Assembly: GCF_001592935.1 (NCBI RefSeq)
Contig: NZ_LRDB01000045.1
Coordinates: forward strand, 1 to 64,000
Source: Roseivirga echinicomitans
GTDB lineage: Bacteria; Bacteroidota; Bacteroidia; Cytophagales; Cyclobacteriaceae
Length of the DNA stretch: 64,000 nucleotides
Reading direction: 5' to 3'
In this document: positions 55,481 through 64,000 of the stretch, in pieces
How positions within the stretch are numbered: position 1 is the first letter of the stretch
Layout: each line of letters starts with the position of its first letter
Position numbers and translations under genes: made by a program
Notes under the pieces: model-generated
Seen by the model: the letters and a program-made list of their open reading frames with translations, nothing else
Told to the model about the DNA's origin: nothing
The model's database searches: none

Positions 55481-56416
55481 TTAGTCTAAAACTTCGCTTA
55501 CATTAATTCTGTAATTGATTGAAAAAGTGTCCCAGTCCCATTGTCTTAATCCGTGATGATAACCTAAACTAATAGTTCCTCCACTCAGTTGTCTAGTCAA
55601 ATTAAAACGAAGGAAAGAAGGGTTGTCTCTATGCTTCTGATATCCCTGATAATTAGACCAATCTGCATCCATTTGCCATTTAGAATGGTGATACTCTAAA
55701 CCCAAACCATACAATGGTGCATCATTCTGTCTTTCAGTTGATCCATTGATTAAACGGTTAACATTGGTTTGGAAAGTATAAAAACCTAACATCATTTTCC
55801 CCAAAAAACGCGAGCTCTCCTGCTCCAAAAACGACTTACTAAAAGTCCCTTCCCAATACAACATACCAGCATCCGTATACCGAGCATTTGCTAAGTTACC
55901 ACCAGTAGTTGTTTTAGCATGAGCGCGCATAGCAAAATTGAACGGCCCCATTTTATCTTCATCAAAGATTTTATACACTACGCCAAAAGCGATATCTCCT
56001 GTTGTTCTTCCCTCTCCAGAAATACCCATCATCCTGCGTTCATCACGGGTTGAGGCTTCTACATTCCATTTTTCAAGCGGAATACTGTTCACGTAGAACA
56101 TGGCCCTGTCTCTTTTTATGGGAAAATTAAATTGGAGAAAAGCATTATCTGTGATGTCTCCGTTCCCTACATGGTGTTCGTAACGAATGTCAAATGATAT
56201 ATTATTATCGATAATCACATTTCCCAAAACAGGCATTCTAAGCGCATTTGGCCCCATAAAACCAGGTGAAATGGAAATATAATCCAAACGATCTGGGCCA
56301 GCAGCCTCGGGATAATTATGCATTTGATCCCACCAATCTAAACTTTGAGCCTGAGCTTGCCCCATCAATAACAAGGCGAAAAAAGCCATTAAAAATTTCA
56401 TCGTTCGAAATAACAA
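55481..56416 (-). CDS. Outer-membrane beta-barrel-like protein
   Basis: A 311-residue secreted protein: signal (MKFLMAFFALLLMGQAQAQ), then many short alternating strands ending in an aromatic-rich C-terminus (ISLGYHHGLRQWDWDTFSINYRI), as in outer-membrane barrels. Function unknown. Its ATG could also be the internal Met at residue 6, which would give a more compact signal peptide. Confidence 0.65.
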   Translation of the reverse strand: MLFRTMKFLMAFFALLLMGQAQAQSLDWWDQMHNYPEAAGPDRLDYISISPGFMGPNALRMPVLGNVIIDNNISFDIRYEHHVGNGDITDNAFLQFNFPIKRDRAMFYVNSIPLEKWNVEASTRDERRMMGISGEGRTTGDIAFGVVYKIFDEDKMGPFNFAMRAHAKTTTGGNLANARYTDAGMLYWEGTFSKSFLEQESSRFLGKMMLGFYTFQTNVNRLINGSTERQNDAPLYGLGLEYHHSKWQMDADWSNYQGYQKHRDNPSFLRFNLTRQLSGGTISLGYHHGLRQWDWDTFSINYRINVSEVLD

Positions 56417-57035: not shown

Positions 57036-58136
57036 CTAAAGTACACCTTTAGTACTTGGTAGCCTGTCCATTTCATCTGCATTTCGCTTTACGGCCATTT
57101 TGATGGCCTTAGCAAAAGCTTTGAAAATCGATTCGATTTTGTGATGTTCATTATCGCCTTCTACCTTGATATTTAGGTTGCATTTGGCGGCATCGGAAAA
57201 TGATTTAAAGAAGTGCATGAACATTTCAGTTGGCATGTCACCCACCATTTCGCGGTTGAAATCTGCTTCCCAAACCAACCAAGGCCTGCCACTAAAGTCG
57301 ATGGCTACTTGAGCCAAAGCTTCATCCATTGGTAATAAAAATCCATATCGGTTTAAGCCTTTCTTATCTCCTATGGCTAGCGCATACGCCTCGCCCAAAG
57401 CCAAAGCGGTATCCTCAATCGTATGGTGTTCATCAATGTGCAAATCACCTTGAACCTTCACGGTTAAATCAGCACCAGAGTGTTTGCCCAACTGATCGAG
57501 CATATGATCAAAGAAACCTAAGCCAGTTTCATTATTACATTGGCCCGTTCCGTCTAAATTTAACTGAATTAGAATATCAGTCTCTTTGGTTACACGATGA
57601 ACTTCCGCCTTTCTTTCTGGCATTTGCAAGAACCTGAAGATTTCATCCCAGCTATTGGTGCTCAACGCTGCTTTAGCGTTTTGTTCTTCAGCAATAAAAA
57701 TGGCTTTCGCGCCTAGGTTTTCCGCCAATTGGATGTCGGTTTCCCTGTCGCCCAAAACGAAAGAATTGGCCAAATCATAATCACCGTTAGTGAATTGAGT
57801 AAGCAAAGCGGTACCTGGTTTACGCGTTGGCGCGTTTTCGTGCGAAAAAGTACGATCGATGATAATTTCATCAAACACTACCCCTTCGCCCTCAAGGGTT
57901 TTAAGCATCTTATTCTGTGCTGGCCAAAAGGTATCTTCGGGGAAAGAATCCGTCCCCAGTCCATCTTGATTGGTCACCATTACAAGTAGATAGTCTAATT
58001 GCTCTGCAATTTTCCTGAGGTTAGAAATGGCACCTGGTAAAAACTCAAGTTTCTCTAAAGAGTCTATTTGAAAGTCGGTTTTGGGTTCATCGATGATCGT
58101 ACCGTCACGATCTATAAAGAGTATTTTTTTCATCAT
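57036..58136 (-). CDS. hisB: Bifunctional histidinol-phosphatase/imidazoleglycerol-phosphate dehydratase
   Basis: Steps 6 and 8 of histidine synthesis. Residues 1-165 are the HAD-type histidinol phosphatase ([20 protein letters not shown]). Residues 175-366 are imidazoleglycerol-phosphate dehydratase ([63 protein letters not shown]), with its metal-binding His motifs. The fusion is 366 residues, like the E. coli enzyme. It is the last gene of the his group here, separated from hisC by an inverted-repeat element. MMKK at the start leaves two possible ATGs. Confidence 0.96.
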
Positions 58137-58324: not shown

Positions 58325-59371
58325 TCAATTTAAGTTTTTGAGTGCATCAATTAGTAATTCATTTTCCTTTTCAGTGCCCACAGTGATTCTAATTCCACCT
58401 TCGCAAAGCGCTACTTTTGAGCGGTCGCGTAGAATGATTTTTTGATCAATGAGTTTCTTATATACGTCAGAAGCATTCTCTAATTTCACTAAAAAGAAAT
58501 TTGAATCGGTAGGGTAAATCGTCTTAATCATAGGGACTTGCTTTAAGGCTTCACCTAAAAATTCTCTATTCTTAAGAATTTGATCTACCATCTTATCCTT
58601 CTTCTCAAGGTTTTCCAAAGCCTTCAAAACGGTTCTCTGAACTAAGCCACTTAAATTATATGGTGCTTTGATTCTATTCAAAATGGCCAATATTTCTTCC
58701 GAAGCGAAAGCCATTCCTAGTCTTAAAGCCGCTAAACCCCAAGCTTTGCTAAAAGTCTGAAGCACCAACAAATTAGGAAATTCTTCAAGCCTCAGTGCAA
58801 AACTCTGTCTGATTGTAAAATCTACATACGCTTCGTCTACCAAAACAATTCCGTTGAAAAAGCACAATATCTCTTCGATCTTATCCAACGAAACATCATT
58901 GCCTGTTGGGTTATTGGGCGAACAGATAAAAATGATTTTCGTGTTTTCGTTTACTGCGCATTTAATCGTCTCAATATCCAAATCATATTCGGCTGTCAGC
59001 AATACTTCGCGTGCCTCTACATTATTAATGTCGGCACTTACCTTGTACATGCCGTAGGTAGGCGGATTGATGATCACATTATCCTTTCCCGGCTCGCAGA
59101 AAGCTCGGAATAATAAATCAATAGGTTCATCACTGCCATTCCCCAAAAAGATATTCTTGGGGTCAATCTCCTTCACCTCTCCAATCCTAGCCTTCAGCTC
59201 CTTTTGATAGGGATCAGGATAGCGATTCCAATCTTCTTCCGTAATTGAACCCAATGAGTTTTCGTTGGCATCCAAAAAGACACCTTCGTTACCCTTGTAA
59301 TCATCTCTGGCAGACGAATAAGGCACCAACTTCTGCAAGTGCGTTCTTAAGAGCGCGTTCGGATCAAACAT
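58325..59371 (-). CDS. hisC: Histidinol-phosphate aminotransferase
   Basis: Step 7 of histidine synthesis, a PLP enzyme of aminotransferase class I/II. 348 residues; ICSPNNPTGN (phosphate/PLP ring), IVLVDEAYVDF and the PLP-Lys motif QTFSKAWGLAALRLG are visible. It overlaps hisD by 8 bases (59364-59371). Confidence 0.96.
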   Translation of the reverse strand: MFDPNALLRTHLQKLVPYSSARDDYKGNEGVFLDANENSLGSITEEDWNRYPDPYQKELKARIGEVKEIDPKNIFLGNGSDEPIDLLFRAFCEPGKDNVIINPPTYGMYKVSADINNVEAREVLLTAEYDLDIETIKCAVNENTKIIFICSPNNPTGNDVSLDKIEEILCFFNGIVLVDEAYVDFTIRQSFALRLEEFPNLLVLQTFSKAWGLAALRLGMAFASEEILAILNRIKAPYNLSGLVQRTVLKALENLEKKDKMVDQILKNREFLGEALKQVPMIKTIYPTDSNFFLVKLENASDVYKKLIDQKIILRDRSKVALCEGGIRITVGTEKENELLIDALKNLN

Positions 59372-60653
59372 TGTTCAATGATTTAAGTCTCAAAGTAACC
59401 GCATTTTTATGTGCTTCTAGCAATTCAGCCTCCGCCATAATCTCCACCACAGGCCCTAAGTTCTTAAGTCCTTCTTTCGTGATTTCCTGATAGGTGATTT
59501 TCTTCACATAACTATCTAAAGAAACACCGCTGTACATTTTCGCATAGCCGTTAGTGGGTAAAGTGTGGTTTGTACCCGAAGCATAATCTCCTGCCGATTC
59601 TGGTGTGTAATTGCCTATAAATACAGAACCTGCATTAATGATTTGATCCGCTACTTCCCACGGTTTTTCAACACACAAAATCAAGTGCTCAGCCCCGTAT
59701 TCGTTCAACAAATCAATGGCCTGTGCTCTATTCTCTAACACAATTGACACACTGTTTTTCAAGGCTTTAGAAGCCAATCCCTCCCGTGGTAAAACCAATA
59801 ATTGCCCTTGTACTTCCTGTTGCACCGCATTAACAATTTCTTCAGAAGAGGCCACCAACACCACTTGAGAGTCGGCACCGTGTTCTGCTTGTGAGAGCAA
59901 ATCGGCAGCTACAAAGGCAGGCACAGCCGTTTCATCTGCATACACCGCTACCTCCGAAGGGCCAGCAGGCATATCGATAGCCAAACCATACTTGGTTGAA
60001 AGCTGTTTGGCAGCAGTGACAAACTGATTTCCAGGACCAAAGATCTTATTCACTTTAGGGATAGTAGCAGTTCCAAAAGTTAAGGCTGCAATGGCTTGCG
60101 CCCCGCCTACCTTATAAATCTTAGTGACGCCCACCAGTTGTGCCGTAAACAAAATGGCTGGATTTACATTTCCGTTTTTATCTGGAGGTGTACACAACAC
60201 GATCTCTTTGCAGCCTGCAATTTTCGCAGGAACAGCCAACATCAAAACAGTAGAAAATAATGGAGCAGTACCTCCGGGGATGTACAAACCCACTTTTTCG
60301 ATGGCCACAGATTTACGGTAGCAATTCACACCGGGCATCGTTTCAACCTTAAGCACTTCGCCTTTTTGGGCTCTGTGAAAAGTCTCAATATTCTGTTTTG
60401 CAATGCGAATAGCTGCCTTCAGTTCTTCAGGCACTAGGTCTACTGCCTCATTAACCTCAGCCGAAGACACCACGAAATTGGTCATTTCCACCCCATCAAA
60501 CTTCTTGGTGAAGTCTATCAAGGCCTGGTCTCCATCTGCTTTCACCGCTTCCATTACAGGCTTCACAATGGCCTCAATGGTTTCCAATTCCATGGTAGGC
60601 CGTTTTAATAATGCCTCCCACTCTTCTCGTTTTGGGTTAATCGCGACAATCAT
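59364..60653 (-). CDS. hisD: Histidinol dehydrogenase
   Basis: Last two steps of histidine synthesis, oxidising histidinol to histidine with NAD. 429 residues, normal for the family; GLYIPGGTAPLFSTVLM, GVTKIYKVGGAQAIAAL, FGPGNQFVTAAKQ and AEHGADSQVVLV (zinc/substrate region) are visible. The start overlaps the hisG stop by 4 bases (60650-60653). Confidence 0.97.
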   Translation of the reverse strand: MIVAINPKREEWEALLKRPTMELETIEAIVKPVMEAVKADGDQALIDFTKKFDGVEMTNFVVSSAEVNEAVDLVPEELKAAIRIAKQNIETFHRAQKGEVLKVETMPGVNCYRKSVAIEKVGLYIPGGTAPLFSTVLMLAVPAKIAGCKEIVLCTPPDKNGNVNPAILFTAQLVGVTKIYKVGGAQAIAALTFGTATIPKVNKIFGPGNQFVTAAKQLSTKYGLAIDMPAGPSEVAVYADETAVPAFVAADLLSQAEHGADSQVVLVASSEEIVNAVQQEVQGQLLVLPREGLASKALKNSVSIVLENRAQAIDLLNEYGAEHLILCVEKPWEVADQIINAGSVFIGNYTPESAGDYASGTNHTLPTNGYAKMYSGVSLDSYVKKITYQEITKEGLKNLGPVVEIMAEAELLEAHKNAVTLRLKSLNNV

Positions 60654-61510
60654 AGAATCATCTTTTCAATTGGCACCACTAGAATTCCTTGTGCCCCCGC
60701 ATTGCGAAGTTCTTCAATAATTTCCCAAAAATCATCCTCCTGTATTACCGAGTGAACAGAGCTCCAGCCCTCAGTTGCCAAAGGTAAAACCGTTGGACTT
60801 TTCATTCCAGGAAGAATGCTGATGATGCTCTCCAAAGCATCGTTTGGCGCATTCAATAAAATGTACTTGTTGTTTTTCGCGGTCTGAACTGCATCAATTC
60901 TAAAGACAAGTCGATCGAGGATTTCCCTTTTCTCCACTGAAAGGTTCTTGTTGGCCAACATTACGGCTTCAGACTTGAAAATCACTTCAACTTCTTTCAG
61001 GCCATTGCTCATTAAGGTTGAACCAGAACTAACTATATCGCAGATCCCATAAGCCAAACCGATACTCGGGGCAATTTCTACCGAACCACTAATTTCGTGG
61101 ATATCAGCATTGATGTTATTCGCCTTGAGGTAATCACCTAAAATTTTCGGGTACGAAGTGGCCAAGCTCTTGCCTTCAAAATCTTCAATTCCATTGTAGC
61201 TTTCCGCCTTGTCGATGGCCAAAGAAAGACGACATTTTGAAAAGCCGAGTTTCTTAACCCAGTCTACTTGCTTATCCTTTTCTTCAGCTTCATTGGCTCC
61301 AACTATTCCGATATCTGCAATACCATCTTGGACATAACCCGGAATATCGTCATCTCTTAAGAATAAAAATTCCATTGGAAAATTTGAAGCCTCGGCCTTG
61401 AGTTTCCCCATGCCGTTATTCACTTTAATACCGCATTCTTTGATTAATGCGAGCGAATCATCGCTCAATCTGCCACTTTTCTGTACTGCTATTCGCAAAG
61501 TATTTTTCAT
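60650..61510 (-). CDS. hisG: ATP phosphoribosyltransferase (long form)
   Basis: First step of histidine synthesis, and the classic feedback-inhibited enzyme. 286 residues is the long HisG form, with a C-terminal regulatory ACT-like domain (about 215-286, LPLATEGWSSVHSVIQEDDFWEII). Catalytic part: RIAVQKSGRLSDDSL, GIADIGIVGANE and EISGSVEIAPSIGLAYGICDIVSSGSTL. First structural gene of the operon, 185 bases after the leader peptide stop. Confidence 0.97.
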   Translation of the reverse strand: MKNTLRIAVQKSGRLSDDSLALIKECGIKVNNGMGKLKAEASNFPMEFLFLRDDDIPGYVQDGIADIGIVGANEAEEKDKQVDWVKKLGFSKCRLSLAIDKAESYNGIEDFEGKSLATSYPKILGDYLKANNINADIHEISGSVEIAPSIGLAYGICDIVSSGSTLMSNGLKEVEVIFKSEAVMLANKNLSVEKREILDRLVFRIDAVQTAKNNKYILLNAPNDALESIISILPGMKSPTVLPLATEGWSSVHSVIQEDDFWEIIEELRNAGAQGILVVPIEKMIL

Positions 61511-61695
61511 TTGTATGTTATTGTAGAGTTCAGGTAAATCGAAGTTTAAGGCCTACCTAACTCCAAATGTTTAGAAATTGATTTGAGTTTTTTCAGAAAA
61601 GCGAACATAGTAATGAACTGCTAAACTGAAATGGGAATTAATTGAATCGAATGTTCCGGCAGAACCTGCCGGGTAGGGTGTTATATATCTCTCTC
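61511..61695 (-). promoter_or_regulatory. his operon untranslated leader with hairpins
   Basis: The 185 bases between the leader-peptide stop and hisG hold two obvious hairpins on the transcript. One is CTCTC-GTAA-GAGAG, spanning the leader stop codon. The other is the GC-rich CCGGCAG-GTT-CTGCCGG (61655-61671). It is followed by an AU-rich stretch, not a U-run. No alternative antiterminator pair was worked out by eye. Confidence 0.55.
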
Positions 61696-61764
61696 TTACG
61701 AGAGATGGTGGAAATGATGCACATGAGGTGCGGTAGTAGAAGCGATATGTGTGTTTTTCAACAT
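61696..61764 (-). CDS. His-rich leader peptide of the his operon
   Basis: A 22-codon ORF beginning with ATG at 61764 and ending with TAA at 61696. The peptide is MLKNTHIASTTAPHVHHFHH plus Leu-Ser, with His at positions 6, 14, 16, 17, 19 and 20, so six of 22 residues and five of seven at positions 14-20. It is the first ORF on the transcript, 185 bases before hisG, in the same direction. In enterobacteria a His-rich leader peptide makes the ribosome stall when charged tRNA-His is scarce. A similar role is strongly suggested here. Confidence 0.9.
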   Translation of the reverse strand: MLKNTHIASTTAPHVHHFHHLS

Positions 61765-61770
61765 CGAGAG

Positions 61771-61802
61771 CAAAGGTAACCAAGCAAATGGTTTAGGCAA
61801 AA
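61771..61802 (-). promoter_or_regulatory. Promoter of the his operon
   Basis: On the minus strand, TTTTG (61798-61802), a 19-base spacer and TACCTTTG (61771-61778) form a full Bacteroidota promoter. The ATG of the leader peptide (61764) is only 6 bases past the TACCTTTG box, so transcription probably starts at or a base or two from the start codon, giving a nearly leaderless leader-peptide mRNA. Confidence 0.75.
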
Positions 61803-61838
61803 GTTATTTTAAAAAAATGGTATTGTCTGAATAATCTC

Positions 61839-62195
61839 TTATTCGAGCGAAAGCCACTCTTCTTTAATCTTCTTGGGTAAACCTTCCACCACAAGGTTAT
61901 AGGAATGATCTATCAGTTCCTTCATTAGATTTTCAGCAACTGTACCATCGGTCTTTACTGAATTCCAATGGGTTTTATTCATATGCCAGCCTGGGGTAAT
62001 TCCGGGTTCTTTTTCCCGTAGTTCGGCCGCATACTCAGGATCACACTTTAAATTGATGTATTCGTATACATCGAGGCCTGTGAGTGCAAACATTTTGCCC
62101 ATCACTTTTAACACCAAGGTATCTGGGCCGAAAGGAGTGTGTTCAGTTACCCCTTTTTTGGCAATACAATATTCTCTGAATTCATCAATGTACAT
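61839..62195 (-). CDS. MmcQ/YjbR family DNA-binding-like protein
   Basis: A 118-residue protein of the MmcQ/YjbR (DUF419) family: YCIAKKGVTEHTPFGPDTLV at the start, YINLKCDPEYAAELREK and GITPGWHMNKTHWNSV in the middle. The fold is CyaY-like, and some members bind double-stranded DNA. Function here unknown. It lies upstream of the his promoter on the same strand. Confidence 0.88.
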   Translation of the reverse strand: MYIDEFREYCIAKKGVTEHTPFGPDTLVLKVMGKMFALTGLDVYEYINLKCDPEYAAELREKEPGITPGWHMNKTHWNSVKTDGTVAENLMKELIDHSYNLVVEGLPKKIKEEWLSLE

Positions 62196-62222
62196 AGTTT
62201 AAAAAATTAGGTAAGCCTATAT

Positions 62223-62447
62223 CTACATCCGTCCAATCGCTCTGCTCACAATCACAATAACTGCGATTAAAAACATAATGATCGAAATCTTATTGACAGT
62301 ATGCATGGCCTTGATATTAAAATTAGTAGGCCGCGAAGGATCCTTCTTTCTGAAAAAATACCCTAAAACAGGACCCAAATTAAAGGCTTCTTTGGCGGTT
62401 AACTTTGAATCCTCTTGCTCTTCATTTTTAATTTCTTCGCTCATCAC
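62223..62447 (-). CDS. Small membrane protein (DUF6728-like)
   Basis: A 74-residue protein with a charged N-terminus (SEEIKNEEQEDSKLTAKEAF), the segment FFRKKDPSRPTNFNIKAMHTV and one C-terminal transmembrane helix (ISIIMFLIAVIVIVSRAIG). Small proteins of this kind are conserved next to ispG or other genes in the phylum. Function unknown. It begins 9 bases after ispG ends. Confidence 0.7.
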   Translation of the reverse strand: MMSEEIKNEEQEDSKLTAKEAFNLGPVLGYFFRKKDPSRPTNFNIKAMHTVNKISIIMFLIAVIVIVSRAIGRM

Positions 62448-62456
62448 ATTTCAATT

Positions 62457-64000
62457 TTAAAATTCGGCATTTGCCAATTCGGGCTCCAACCATTTGCCAT
62501 CTTCGCGTATGATCTCAATCAATTCGTCTACGGCTTTTTCGGAGGCTACTCCCCTTTTCATTACTTCCTGGCCTTTGTACAAGGTAATCTTTCCTTTGCC
62601 CGAACCCACATAACCGTAATCTGCATCGGCCATTTCACCTGGGCCGTTTACGATACAACCCATGATTCCGATTTTCACTCCTTTCAAATGATCGGTGCGT
62701 TTACGGATCATGGCCGTGGTTTCTTGTAAGTCGAACAATGTTCTTCCACAAGACGGACAAGAAATATATTCGGTTTTGGTCATTCGCGTACGAGCCGCTT
62801 GAAGGATACCAAAGCCGGTTTCATTCTTCAACTTTAAATCTGCCAGTTGGGTTTCCTTATCGGACTGTTTATCTACCTGAAGCATAACGCCATCTCCAAA
62901 TCCATCGACTAACAGACCACCAAAATCTGTTGAAGCATGAATCAAAAACTCCTCGGCATCAGTTACGGTGTAGTTTCTAGACACGATGACCGGAACCGAT
63001 AATTTCCTTTTTACCAATTCAAAAAAGAAACGCCTCAAAGCAGGCATGGCATGTTCATTCTCAGTTTCGAGAATTACCACCAAGTTAGAAGCCTCCAACA
63101 CCGACATTACATCCTCTGACAATTCATCGGCTTTTAGCTTTATGAAATTGAGTTGATCATCAGCGTTTTCTGCTTCGGCCAACTGATCGAAAGTAAAAAC
63201 GGGGTAACGATTCGCTTTATCTTCCAAGTCATTCCATTGCGGGTAATCGACCAGCTCTTTCAAGCCATTCGGCAACATAAAATCGATCGCATTATTGCCC
63301 GAGTAAACGTAATCTGCACCTTGATCATTCATTCGCCATTTATCGGGTTCTGGCAAATAGAAGTGTCCAACGTTCTTTAAATCTTTAATGGTAATTTCTT
63401 CAAACTGACTCAAGTCAGCAATGACGCGTGGCACATTAGAAGCGCCAATATTTACTACTTCTCTCGACTGACGTTTGTGATACAAGAATGGATCAATCGG
63501 ATTTTCATCAATCTCAGCAATGGTTTTGTGTTCATGTCGGTTATGATAACGATCGACAAGCTTTTGCGCCACAGGAGCTTCGAATTCTGGTTCCTCTGTC
63601 AAGGAAACACGGACAGTATCTCCTAATCCATCTTCCAGCAAAGTACCAATCCCCACTGCGGATTTGATTCGGCCGTCTTCGGCTTCACCTGCTTCGGTTA
63701 CACCCAAATGCAACGGATAAGGTTTTAGACCTTCTTCATCTAATTTCTGCACCAGCAAACGATAGGCCTCTACCATCACTTGTGTGTTACTCGACTTCAT
63801 AGAAAGCACAATATTATAGTACTCCAAGTCTTCGCAAATACGCAAAAACTCAAGTGCCGATTCCACCATACCCAAAGCGGTATCGCCATAGCGGCTCATG
63901 ATTCTATCCGAAAGCGAACCGTGATTAGTCCCAATCCGCATGGCAGTTCCATGTGCTTTACAAATCTCTACTAAAGGCGTAAAGCGCACCCGAACTCTGT
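62457..64000 (-). CDS. ispG: (E)-4-hydroxy-3-methylbut-2-enyl-diphosphate synthase, partial (3' part)
   Basis: Step 6 of the MEP isoprenoid pathway, an iron-sulfur enzyme. This is the long, plant-like form (with a large insertion between the TIM barrel and the C-terminal domain) usual in Bacteroidota. The window cuts its N-terminus: the frame is open to the edge, and GTG at 63987 is not the true start (RVRFTPLVEIC continues upstream). Cluster ligands: Cys in CPSCGRTLFDL and IGIMGCIVNGPGE. GTNHGSLSDRIMSRYGDT and LHLGVTEAGEAEDG are TIM-barrel motifs. Confidence 0.95.
   Translation of the reverse strand, partial: RVRVRFTPLVEICKAHGTAMRIGTNHGSLSDRIMSRYGDTALGMVESALEFLRICEDLEYYNIVLSMKSSNTQVMVEAYRLLVQKLDEEGLKPYPLHLGVTEAGEAEDGRIKSAVGIGTLLEDGLGDTVRVSLTEEPEFEAPVAQKLVDRYHNRHEHKTIAEIDENPIDPFLYHKRQSREVVNIGASNVPRVIADLSQFEEITIKDLKNVGHFYLPEPDKWRMNDQGADYVYSGNNAIDFMLPNGLKELVDYPQWNDLEDKANRYPVFTFDQLAEAENADDQLNFIKLKADELSEDVMSVLEASNLVVILETENEHAMPALRRFFFELVKRKLSVPVIVSRNYTVTDAEEFLIHASTDFGGLLVDGFGDGVMLQVDKQSDKETQLADLKLKNETGFGILQAARTRMTKTEYISCPSCGRTLFDLQETTAMIRKRTDHLKGVKIGIMGCIVNGPGEMADADYGYVGSGKGKITLYKGQEVMKRGVASEKAVDELIEIIREDGKWLEPELANAEF

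Follow-up and report, generated by a model that had tools for sequence, protein, structure and literature searches.

A conserved His-rich leader ORF without an intrinsic terminator before hisGDCB in Roseivirga, and a candidate second class of leaders in Bacteroidota

The window, the whole stretch of DNA analysed, is 64,000 nt from Roseivirga echinicomitans (contig NZ_LRDB01000045.1, assembly GCF_001592935.1, positions 1 to 64,000). On its minus strand lie hisG (60650-61510; TIGR00070 and TIGR03455), hisD (59364-60653; TIGR00069), hisC (58325-59371; TIGR01141) and a bifunctional hisB (57036-58136; NF003937), each matching its families above cut-off. The best named relatives of this HisG are those of Roseivirga ehrenbergii (98% identical) and R. 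seohaensis (97%). Ahead of hisG on the same strand, a 22-codon ORF (61764..61696) runs from an ATG to a TAA stop at 61698-61696 and encodes MLKNTHIASTTAPHVHHFHHLS. Five of its six His fall in the series H-V-H-H-F-H-H and within the last nine codons. An earlier note, made from the sequence of the window, had pointed to a 22-codon ORF with six His, five in seven residues, ahead of hisG-hisD-hisC-hisB and directly behind a promoter. The ORF proved exact in place and content, and family searches confirmed all four genes downstream. Among the 872 ATG ORFs of 8-60 amino acids on both strands of the window, this is the one that reaches at least 4 His per 8 residues; 5 of 7949 short ATG ORFs do so in 636 kb of other, related loci. 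An NCBIfam search with four leader peptides matched no families. At the cluster itself, an adjoining 311-codon ORF (55481-56416, minus) has no NCBIfam or Pfam match.

The promoter of the earlier note is present too, in the form used by Bacteroidota (TTG-N19-TAnnTTTG). A generic scan for an E. coli sigma-70 promoter finds nothing there, and the Bacteroidota primary-sigma type fits (61771..61800, minus): TTG at 61800-61798, a 19-nt spacer, and TACCTTTG at 61778-61771, ending 6 nt before the ATG. The TAnnTTTG box occupies -12 to -5 in Flavobacterium psychrophilum, according to the excerpted text of PMC9723704. With that box position and the 6-nt spacing, transcription is predicted to start at 61766 (minus), which places the AUG at +3 and implies a 2-nt 5′ UTR. 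Because the promoter ends so close to the AUG, the mRNA is probably leaderless by a criterion of <10 nt, and we consider a leaderless start likely from this spacing. In Bacteroides thetaiotaomicron, only ∼3.7% of 5′ UTRs are <10 nt (PMC7366714, in excerpt).

Two hairpins follow. H1 (61687..61706, minus; AUCUCUC-guaaga-GAGAGAU) holds the stop codon in its loop, and its 5′ arm starts in the last His codon; a fold of 185 nt gives it a z score of -4.07. H2 (61656..61672, minus; CCGGCAG-GUU-CUGCCGG) has no U tract after it. The 185-nt interval between leader and hisG (61511..61695, minus) has more C than G. No intrinsic terminator was found in it on the his strand, and the window leader almost certainly lacks one. 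Spacing within the genus is 184-185 nt at three loci (the window included), 132 nt at one and 85-99 nt at the other 15. When 61000-62500 was compared with Rfam at a limit of E 5, seven weak matches came back, with neither a his leader (RF00514) nor a T-box among them, and both identities were rejected. The earlier note mentions neither hairpin, nor the lack of a terminator, nor the probably leaderless start.

Across the 19 genus sequences H2 follows a C-rich linker, and five of its six pairs are changed on both sides. H1 and H2 together have a covariation score of 0.434 versus 0.213 in shuffles, with none of 500 shuffles reaching 0.434, and 97.4% of cells pair versus 38-60% when the partners are slid. 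Of five measures in all, their pairs changed on both sides are matched by 9 of 500 shuffles, and their further pair types by 215 of 500. H1 itself is nearly invariant within the genus, so its support is the comparison between groups given below. A AATCAATTTCTAAA-like stretch (61583-61570, minus) was tried as a partner for the AGAGAU of H1 and found no support, the duplex test being significant in 0 of 19 genus sequences. By eye, variants of this stretch precede hisG in much of the genus, unexplained by pairing with H1.

We scanned the 400 nt upstream of hisG in relatives for ORFs of ≤60 codons with at least 3 His in 8 residues, allowing ATG, GTG and TTG starts. Four groups were used: the genus; the family (109 of 110 further matches, G086 being left out as a partial gene); the phylum (70 of 88 matching genomes, G000 and G099 being in the set already); and named GTDB hits. 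One genome (L156 and L164) is counted in two groups, and loci that could not be parsed are left out of the leader counts (L045, L119, L193, L246, L258 and L271-L274). Some species may be common to the genus set and the GTDB hits, and the two were pooled only in the composition test (all leaders) and the hisG tree.

A His-rich ORF was found before hisG at 19/19 genus, 101/107 family and 43/64 phylum loci and at 68/78 GTDB hits. The reverse strand, as a control, gave 0/19, 3/107, 2/64 and 0/78, and two shuffles gave 2-3/19, 8-9/107, 1-4/64 and 3-7/78. When at least 4 His in 8 were demanded, the counts were 18/19, 86/107, 40/64 and 64/78, while the reverse strand yielded none and either shuffle 0-2 per group. 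The earlier note had proposed comparing relatives for the ORF and for His codons in register, and both are conserved. All 16 distinct tails from the genus keep His at the final two His positions, with CAT in 14 and CAC in 2 at one and CAT throughout at the other, while the three earlier positions are His in 13/16, 14/16 and 14/16. The last two His are likewise kept in 29/29 distinct tails of the HHSS type. Outside the His block the peptide varies freely by lineage, with VHHFHHSS in the family, QLHHHHFHYCSQAMC in Flavobacterium and, in other parts of the phylum, VHHAHHGHHHIHVQ. For one leader of the genus, L083, the scan shows no start at ATG, and some phylum leaders likewise lack one.

The leader is absent at 10 of the 78 GTDB hits (L011-L015, L017, L020, L021, L027 and L028), five of them Siphonobacter; these are apparent losses of the system before hisG. 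It is also absent at 21/64 phylum loci, 18 of which come from a batch with a divergent HisG start. At L154, an ORF encoding MNSLRHHHHHHHARTGSSGG (381-443) is found ∼1.05 kb ahead of the start assigned to hisG; perhaps it serves as leader to a different gene, or to an operon start that has been displaced.

A terminator detector was run between the leader stop and hisG, looking for a stem and then a U tract, with a score threshold of 20 and later 18; the lower value moved L135, L137 and L226 into class T below. At a score of 20, terminators were found in 0/19 genus, 29/100 family and 25/43 phylum leaders and in 53/68 GTDB leaders, the family row covering 100 of its 101 leaders since L216 was left out for its short interval. 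A match of any score occurred in 3.4% of shuffled intervals. The leaders thus fall into those with a terminator (class T) and those without (class N).

Class T is the textbook arrangement, an antiterminator and a U-tract terminator, typically with a near-perfect stem such as AACCCGTTTGAGTACATCAAACGGGTT and then T. The stretch from its His block to just past the stop can pair with the 5′ side of the terminator (mean z -2.35; 38/57 individually significant). In class N, the test for an antiterminator duplex gave the 3′ arm of this class's stop hairpin nothing to pair with downstream (mean z +0.23; 5/105 significant), and within the genus it gave a mean z of +0.35 with 0/19 significant. The last His lies ≤3 codons from the stop in 92/108 class N versus 7/54 class T leaders, classed at a score of 20. 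The window belongs to class N. Flavobacterium loci among the GTDB hits have His leaders wherever upstream DNA suffices, and those looked at are class T with a U-tract terminator.

In class N the stop codon tends to sit within a small hairpin, the 5′ arm of which starts in the last His codon or beside it. Perfect stems of a set strength that enclose the stop were found in 78/105 class N leaders versus 115/637 control positions in the same intervals; the figures for class T are 10/57 and, with terminator stems included among the control positions, 130/353. Class N stop hairpins have 40 different arm pairs, among them AUUCCUCC-uga-GGAGGAAU in the HHSS group, UGUGC/GCACA and AUUGCU/AGCAAU. Mean folding z at the stop hairpin is -3.7 in the genus, -1.8 in family class N, -1.1 in phylum class N and ∼0 in class T. 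Class N leaders outside the HHSS and HHL types have a weaker stop hairpin (mean z -1.1; 8/56 individually significant). In HHSS-type family leaders (e.g. L162 and L200), a strongly conserved ACATATCGCCC separates the stop hairpin from the hairpin-like stretch that follows, and could be a pause or binding site. A CATATCGC stretch within the ORF is a candidate for some relation to the ACATATCGCCC that follows H1 of the HHSS group.

In the genus, 18/19 his leaders have TTG, 18 or 19 nt, and a TAnnTTTG that ends 4-7 nt before the ATG, placing the AUG at +1 to +4. A strict promoter was not found for 42/105 class N and 40/57 class T leaders; among the others it lies within 10 nt of the ATG in 57/63 of class N and 2/17 of class T; in 14/17 of class T the distance from box to leader ATG is 17-35 nt. 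For comparison, of 5762 ATGs on the opposite strand 4 have the same configuration ahead of them, as does 1 among 6174 other ATGs.

On a hisG tree of the genus, family and phylum loci and the GTDB hits L002-L029 with leaders, class N occupies three separate parts. Four changes of class are needed, and starred branches force at least three of them; in the underlying alignment 84 of 167 rows fill under half of the columns. His codons close to the stop are common to most of these parts, and the excess of C over G described below to two of them. With so few origins of class N, tests that count genomes are too generous, and their small p-values count relatives repeatedly.

Other amino-acid operons of the genus show what else these genomes do. 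A WWW leader precedes trpE at 17 of 18 loci (L279-L296, L286 being the window genome). These trp leaders have a -7 box 5-8 nt before the ATG in 15/17 and are probably leaderless, and the same detector as used for his finds an intrinsic terminator in 17/17. A rough scan ahead of the ilvD and homoserine dehydrogenase genes of the genus turned up no conserved leader.

The biosynthetic hisH loci hold a further leader. At 16 of 17, hisH lies behind a gene with a phenylalanine 4-monooxygenase motif and with a mixed leader upstream; the identity of this gene comes from a family search in the window genome and from the motif elsewhere. In the window genome (L366, G000:C5) the leader is at 563-634, the phenylalanine 4-monooxygenase gene at 735-1472 and hisH at 1495-2079. 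At the seventeenth locus, L363, no gene with the motif lies within the available stretch. The mixed leaders have 4-5 Tyr and 1-4 His codons (MLHSSAHHHYYYYYPNDRNGCAM in the window genome), a terminator in 16/16 and, again in 16/16, a promoter box at a distance of 5-11 nt from the ATG. Behind hisH, with names given by eye at 14 loci, a HisA-like ORF start was found in 10 and a HisF-like one in 7; at some loci another ORF lies between, and at some the stretch ends. Apparently this is a single, probably leaderless leader for a mixed Tyr/His operon, and with both kinds of codon in one leader it may sense two amino acids. As a second leader with His codons before his genes, it supports the sensing of His. 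Thus the genus seems to employ classical attenuation, with leaderless leaders apparently habitual in it; an idea that a leaderless start is unique to class N was dropped, the trp and Tyr/His leaders looking leaderless too. Of the three leader systems examined (hisGDCB, trp and Tyr/His), only that of hisGDCB has no terminator.

The earlier note had claimed that the His-rich peptide controls the his operon by attenuation. The comparison supports such control, and we think it very likely that the ORF senses histidine shortage by ribosome stalling on its His codons, by analogy with known attenuators. The intrinsic terminator of the enterobacterial mechanism is the part that does not hold for the window. 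Turning to the output, C minus G is 0.092 in class N intervals versus 0.019 in 145 other upstream regions, with YC at 0.128 versus 0.085; class T with the hairpin taken out has a C minus G of 0.033. Within the same family it is 0.090 for class N versus 0.011 for class T, and in the same 17 genomes it is 0.070 for the his interval versus -0.010 for the trp interval. In one part of the tree, f3, with two class N loci, it is only 0.044. The interval of the window by itself stands at just the 79th percentile of background, so the skew is a property of the class. Rho makes use of C-rich, G-poor RNA free of ribosomes, as the excerpted text of PMC5021804 has it, and rho is present in the genome (TIGR00767, E 1.6e-200).

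Composition and elimination point, tentatively, to Rho-dependent termination as the most likely output. The elements at hand in the sequence are the leader ORF with its conserved His codons, H1, H2 and the lack of a terminator and an antiterminator; stalling is taken from known attenuators, and the leaderless start from promoter spacing. Transcription would begin at the AUG of the leader or 2-3 nt ahead of it, and the leaderless leader would be translated once out of RNA polymerase. When charged His-tRNA is ample, the ribosome would pass the His codons, stop at the UAA inside H1 and leave. H1 would refold, the pyrimidine-rich, G-poor RNA of the His codons and the interval would be bare, and Rho could load and end transcription before hisG or early in it. 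When charged His-tRNA is short, the ribosome would stall at the foot of H1 while reading the His codons, covering the C-rich codons and holding H1 open. With H1 open and the codons covered, Rho could not load or act, and hisGDCB would be made. Most of the interval would stay bare even with the ribosome stalled, so the leader codons and H1 would have to be the main targets of masking. H2, conserved in the genus with covariation, has no role in this Rho model. As precedents, tnaC and mgtL each have Rho controlled by a ribosome stalled on the leader, in the portion of PMC5021804 available. The chain as a whole, from His stalling through a leaderless and terminator-less leader to Rho, is somewhat less likely than not to hold.

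The same sensing of His could instead feed other outputs. A stalled ribosome near the 5′ end might shield a leaderless mRNA that would otherwise decay from the leader, which would suit a leader with neither terminator nor antiterminator, an ORF put at the very 5′ end by promoter spacing, and hairpins at the stop and beyond. The erm leaders are a case of stall-dependent mRNA protection. Nothing examined points to a nuclease site, and control of mRNA stability does not predict the excess of C over G, so we find it unlikely. Alternatively, the leader RNA could hide or free the hisG start. A later study of a mycobacterial poly-Cys attenuator is said to have proposed such translational control for leaderless Cys-rich leaders. 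A leaderless short ORF before an amino-acid operon would fit it. The excerpted text of PMC4633059 describes uORFs of mycobacteria that are rich in Cys and candidates for attenuators. Here the hisG start region is as unpaired in class N (0.588) as in class T (0.577) and in 30 other window genes (0.514); a start no more paired in N than in T counts against sequestration. Nor does the 3′ arm of H1 have a downstream partner above chance (the 5/105 above), and a translational output is quite improbable.

Two readings depart further from Rho-dependent termination. H2 might be an unusual terminator that lacks U, making this a case of classical attenuation. It is GC-rich, and its pairs are changed on both sides in the genus as given above, but it has no U tract in genomes that use ordinary U-tract terminators for trp and Tyr/His, there is no antiterminator in the genus test, and by eye some class N leaders, e.g. 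L131 and L132, have no such hairpin. We judge this improbable as well. It is hardly credible that this small His-rich ORF arose by chance or has no regulatory role, given that its position, His codons and frame are conserved over much of the phylum and that a differently built Tyr/His leader precedes the hisH operon of the same genus.

In the wide sense of a short ORF with codons for the product of its operon, conserved in frame, the locus has, as far as sequence can tell, a leader-peptide attenuator. Candidate attenuators in Bacteroidetes/Chlorobi were reportedly described by Vitreschak et al. 2004 (FEMS Microbiol Lett), and Lopatovskaya et al. 2010 is a further reference. The enterobacterial his leader (hisL, RF00514) resembles the window in its His-rich ORF before hisG and in a hairpin at the ORF end, and the pause hairpin of the enterobacterial leader has that same position. 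The window differs in having no terminator or antiterminator, a probably leaderless start, an interrupted His series (HVHHFHH) and a different peptide. F. psychrophilum shares the phylum and the gene, and for it the excerpted text of PMC9723704 suggests leader-peptide attenuation upstream of amino-acid operons and reports a conserved structured 5′ element at hisG. With flavobacterial attenuation and this hisG element already proposed, the His leader as such belongs to a known kind; the Flavobacterium leaders looked at are class T, whereas the window is class N.

Likeness to tnaC and mgtL would lie in a stalled leader ribosome that decides whether Rho acts. As described in the excerpt of PMC5021804, tnaC senses free Trp through the nascent chain, while mgtL stalls on Pro codons and a stem-loop frees or hides the Rho region. 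The Cys-rich uORFs of mycobacteria (PMC4633059) and trpL of S. meliloti, which is part of a transcription attenuator (PMC7298713), also carry regulatory codons in an ORF at the 5′ end, going by the portions of both papers available; they belong to other phyla and other amino acids, and sequestration of the hisG start was not seen here. His-codon leader peptides have been found comparatively outside Proteobacteria in Gram-positive bacteria, alongside T-boxes (PMC9413887, PMC2965389, both in excerpt). Those systems have terminators, and in PMC9413887 antiterminators as well, whereas the window has no T-box. The terminator-less stop-hairpin class and the mixed Tyr/His leader were not met in the open-licence literature searched, a body with most subscription papers outside it and searched without Tyr leaders as an aim.

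With somewhat less than even confidence, we propose a second class of Bacteroidota leaders. It would occupy three parts of the hisG tree and be leaderless in the clade of the window, its regulatory codons would abut a stop held in a hairpin, and with neither terminator nor antiterminator it would act through Rho or another terminator-free output. Roseivirga would run both kinds, terminator-free for hisGDCB and terminator-based for trp and for the Tyr/His leader of the phenylalanine hydroxylase-hisH operon. Textbook attenuation is a switch between terminator and antiterminator. In part of a large phylum that signal seems to be sensed without the switch, beside classical leaders in the same cell. 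Gene finders gain a rule for leader peptides that annotation overlooks.
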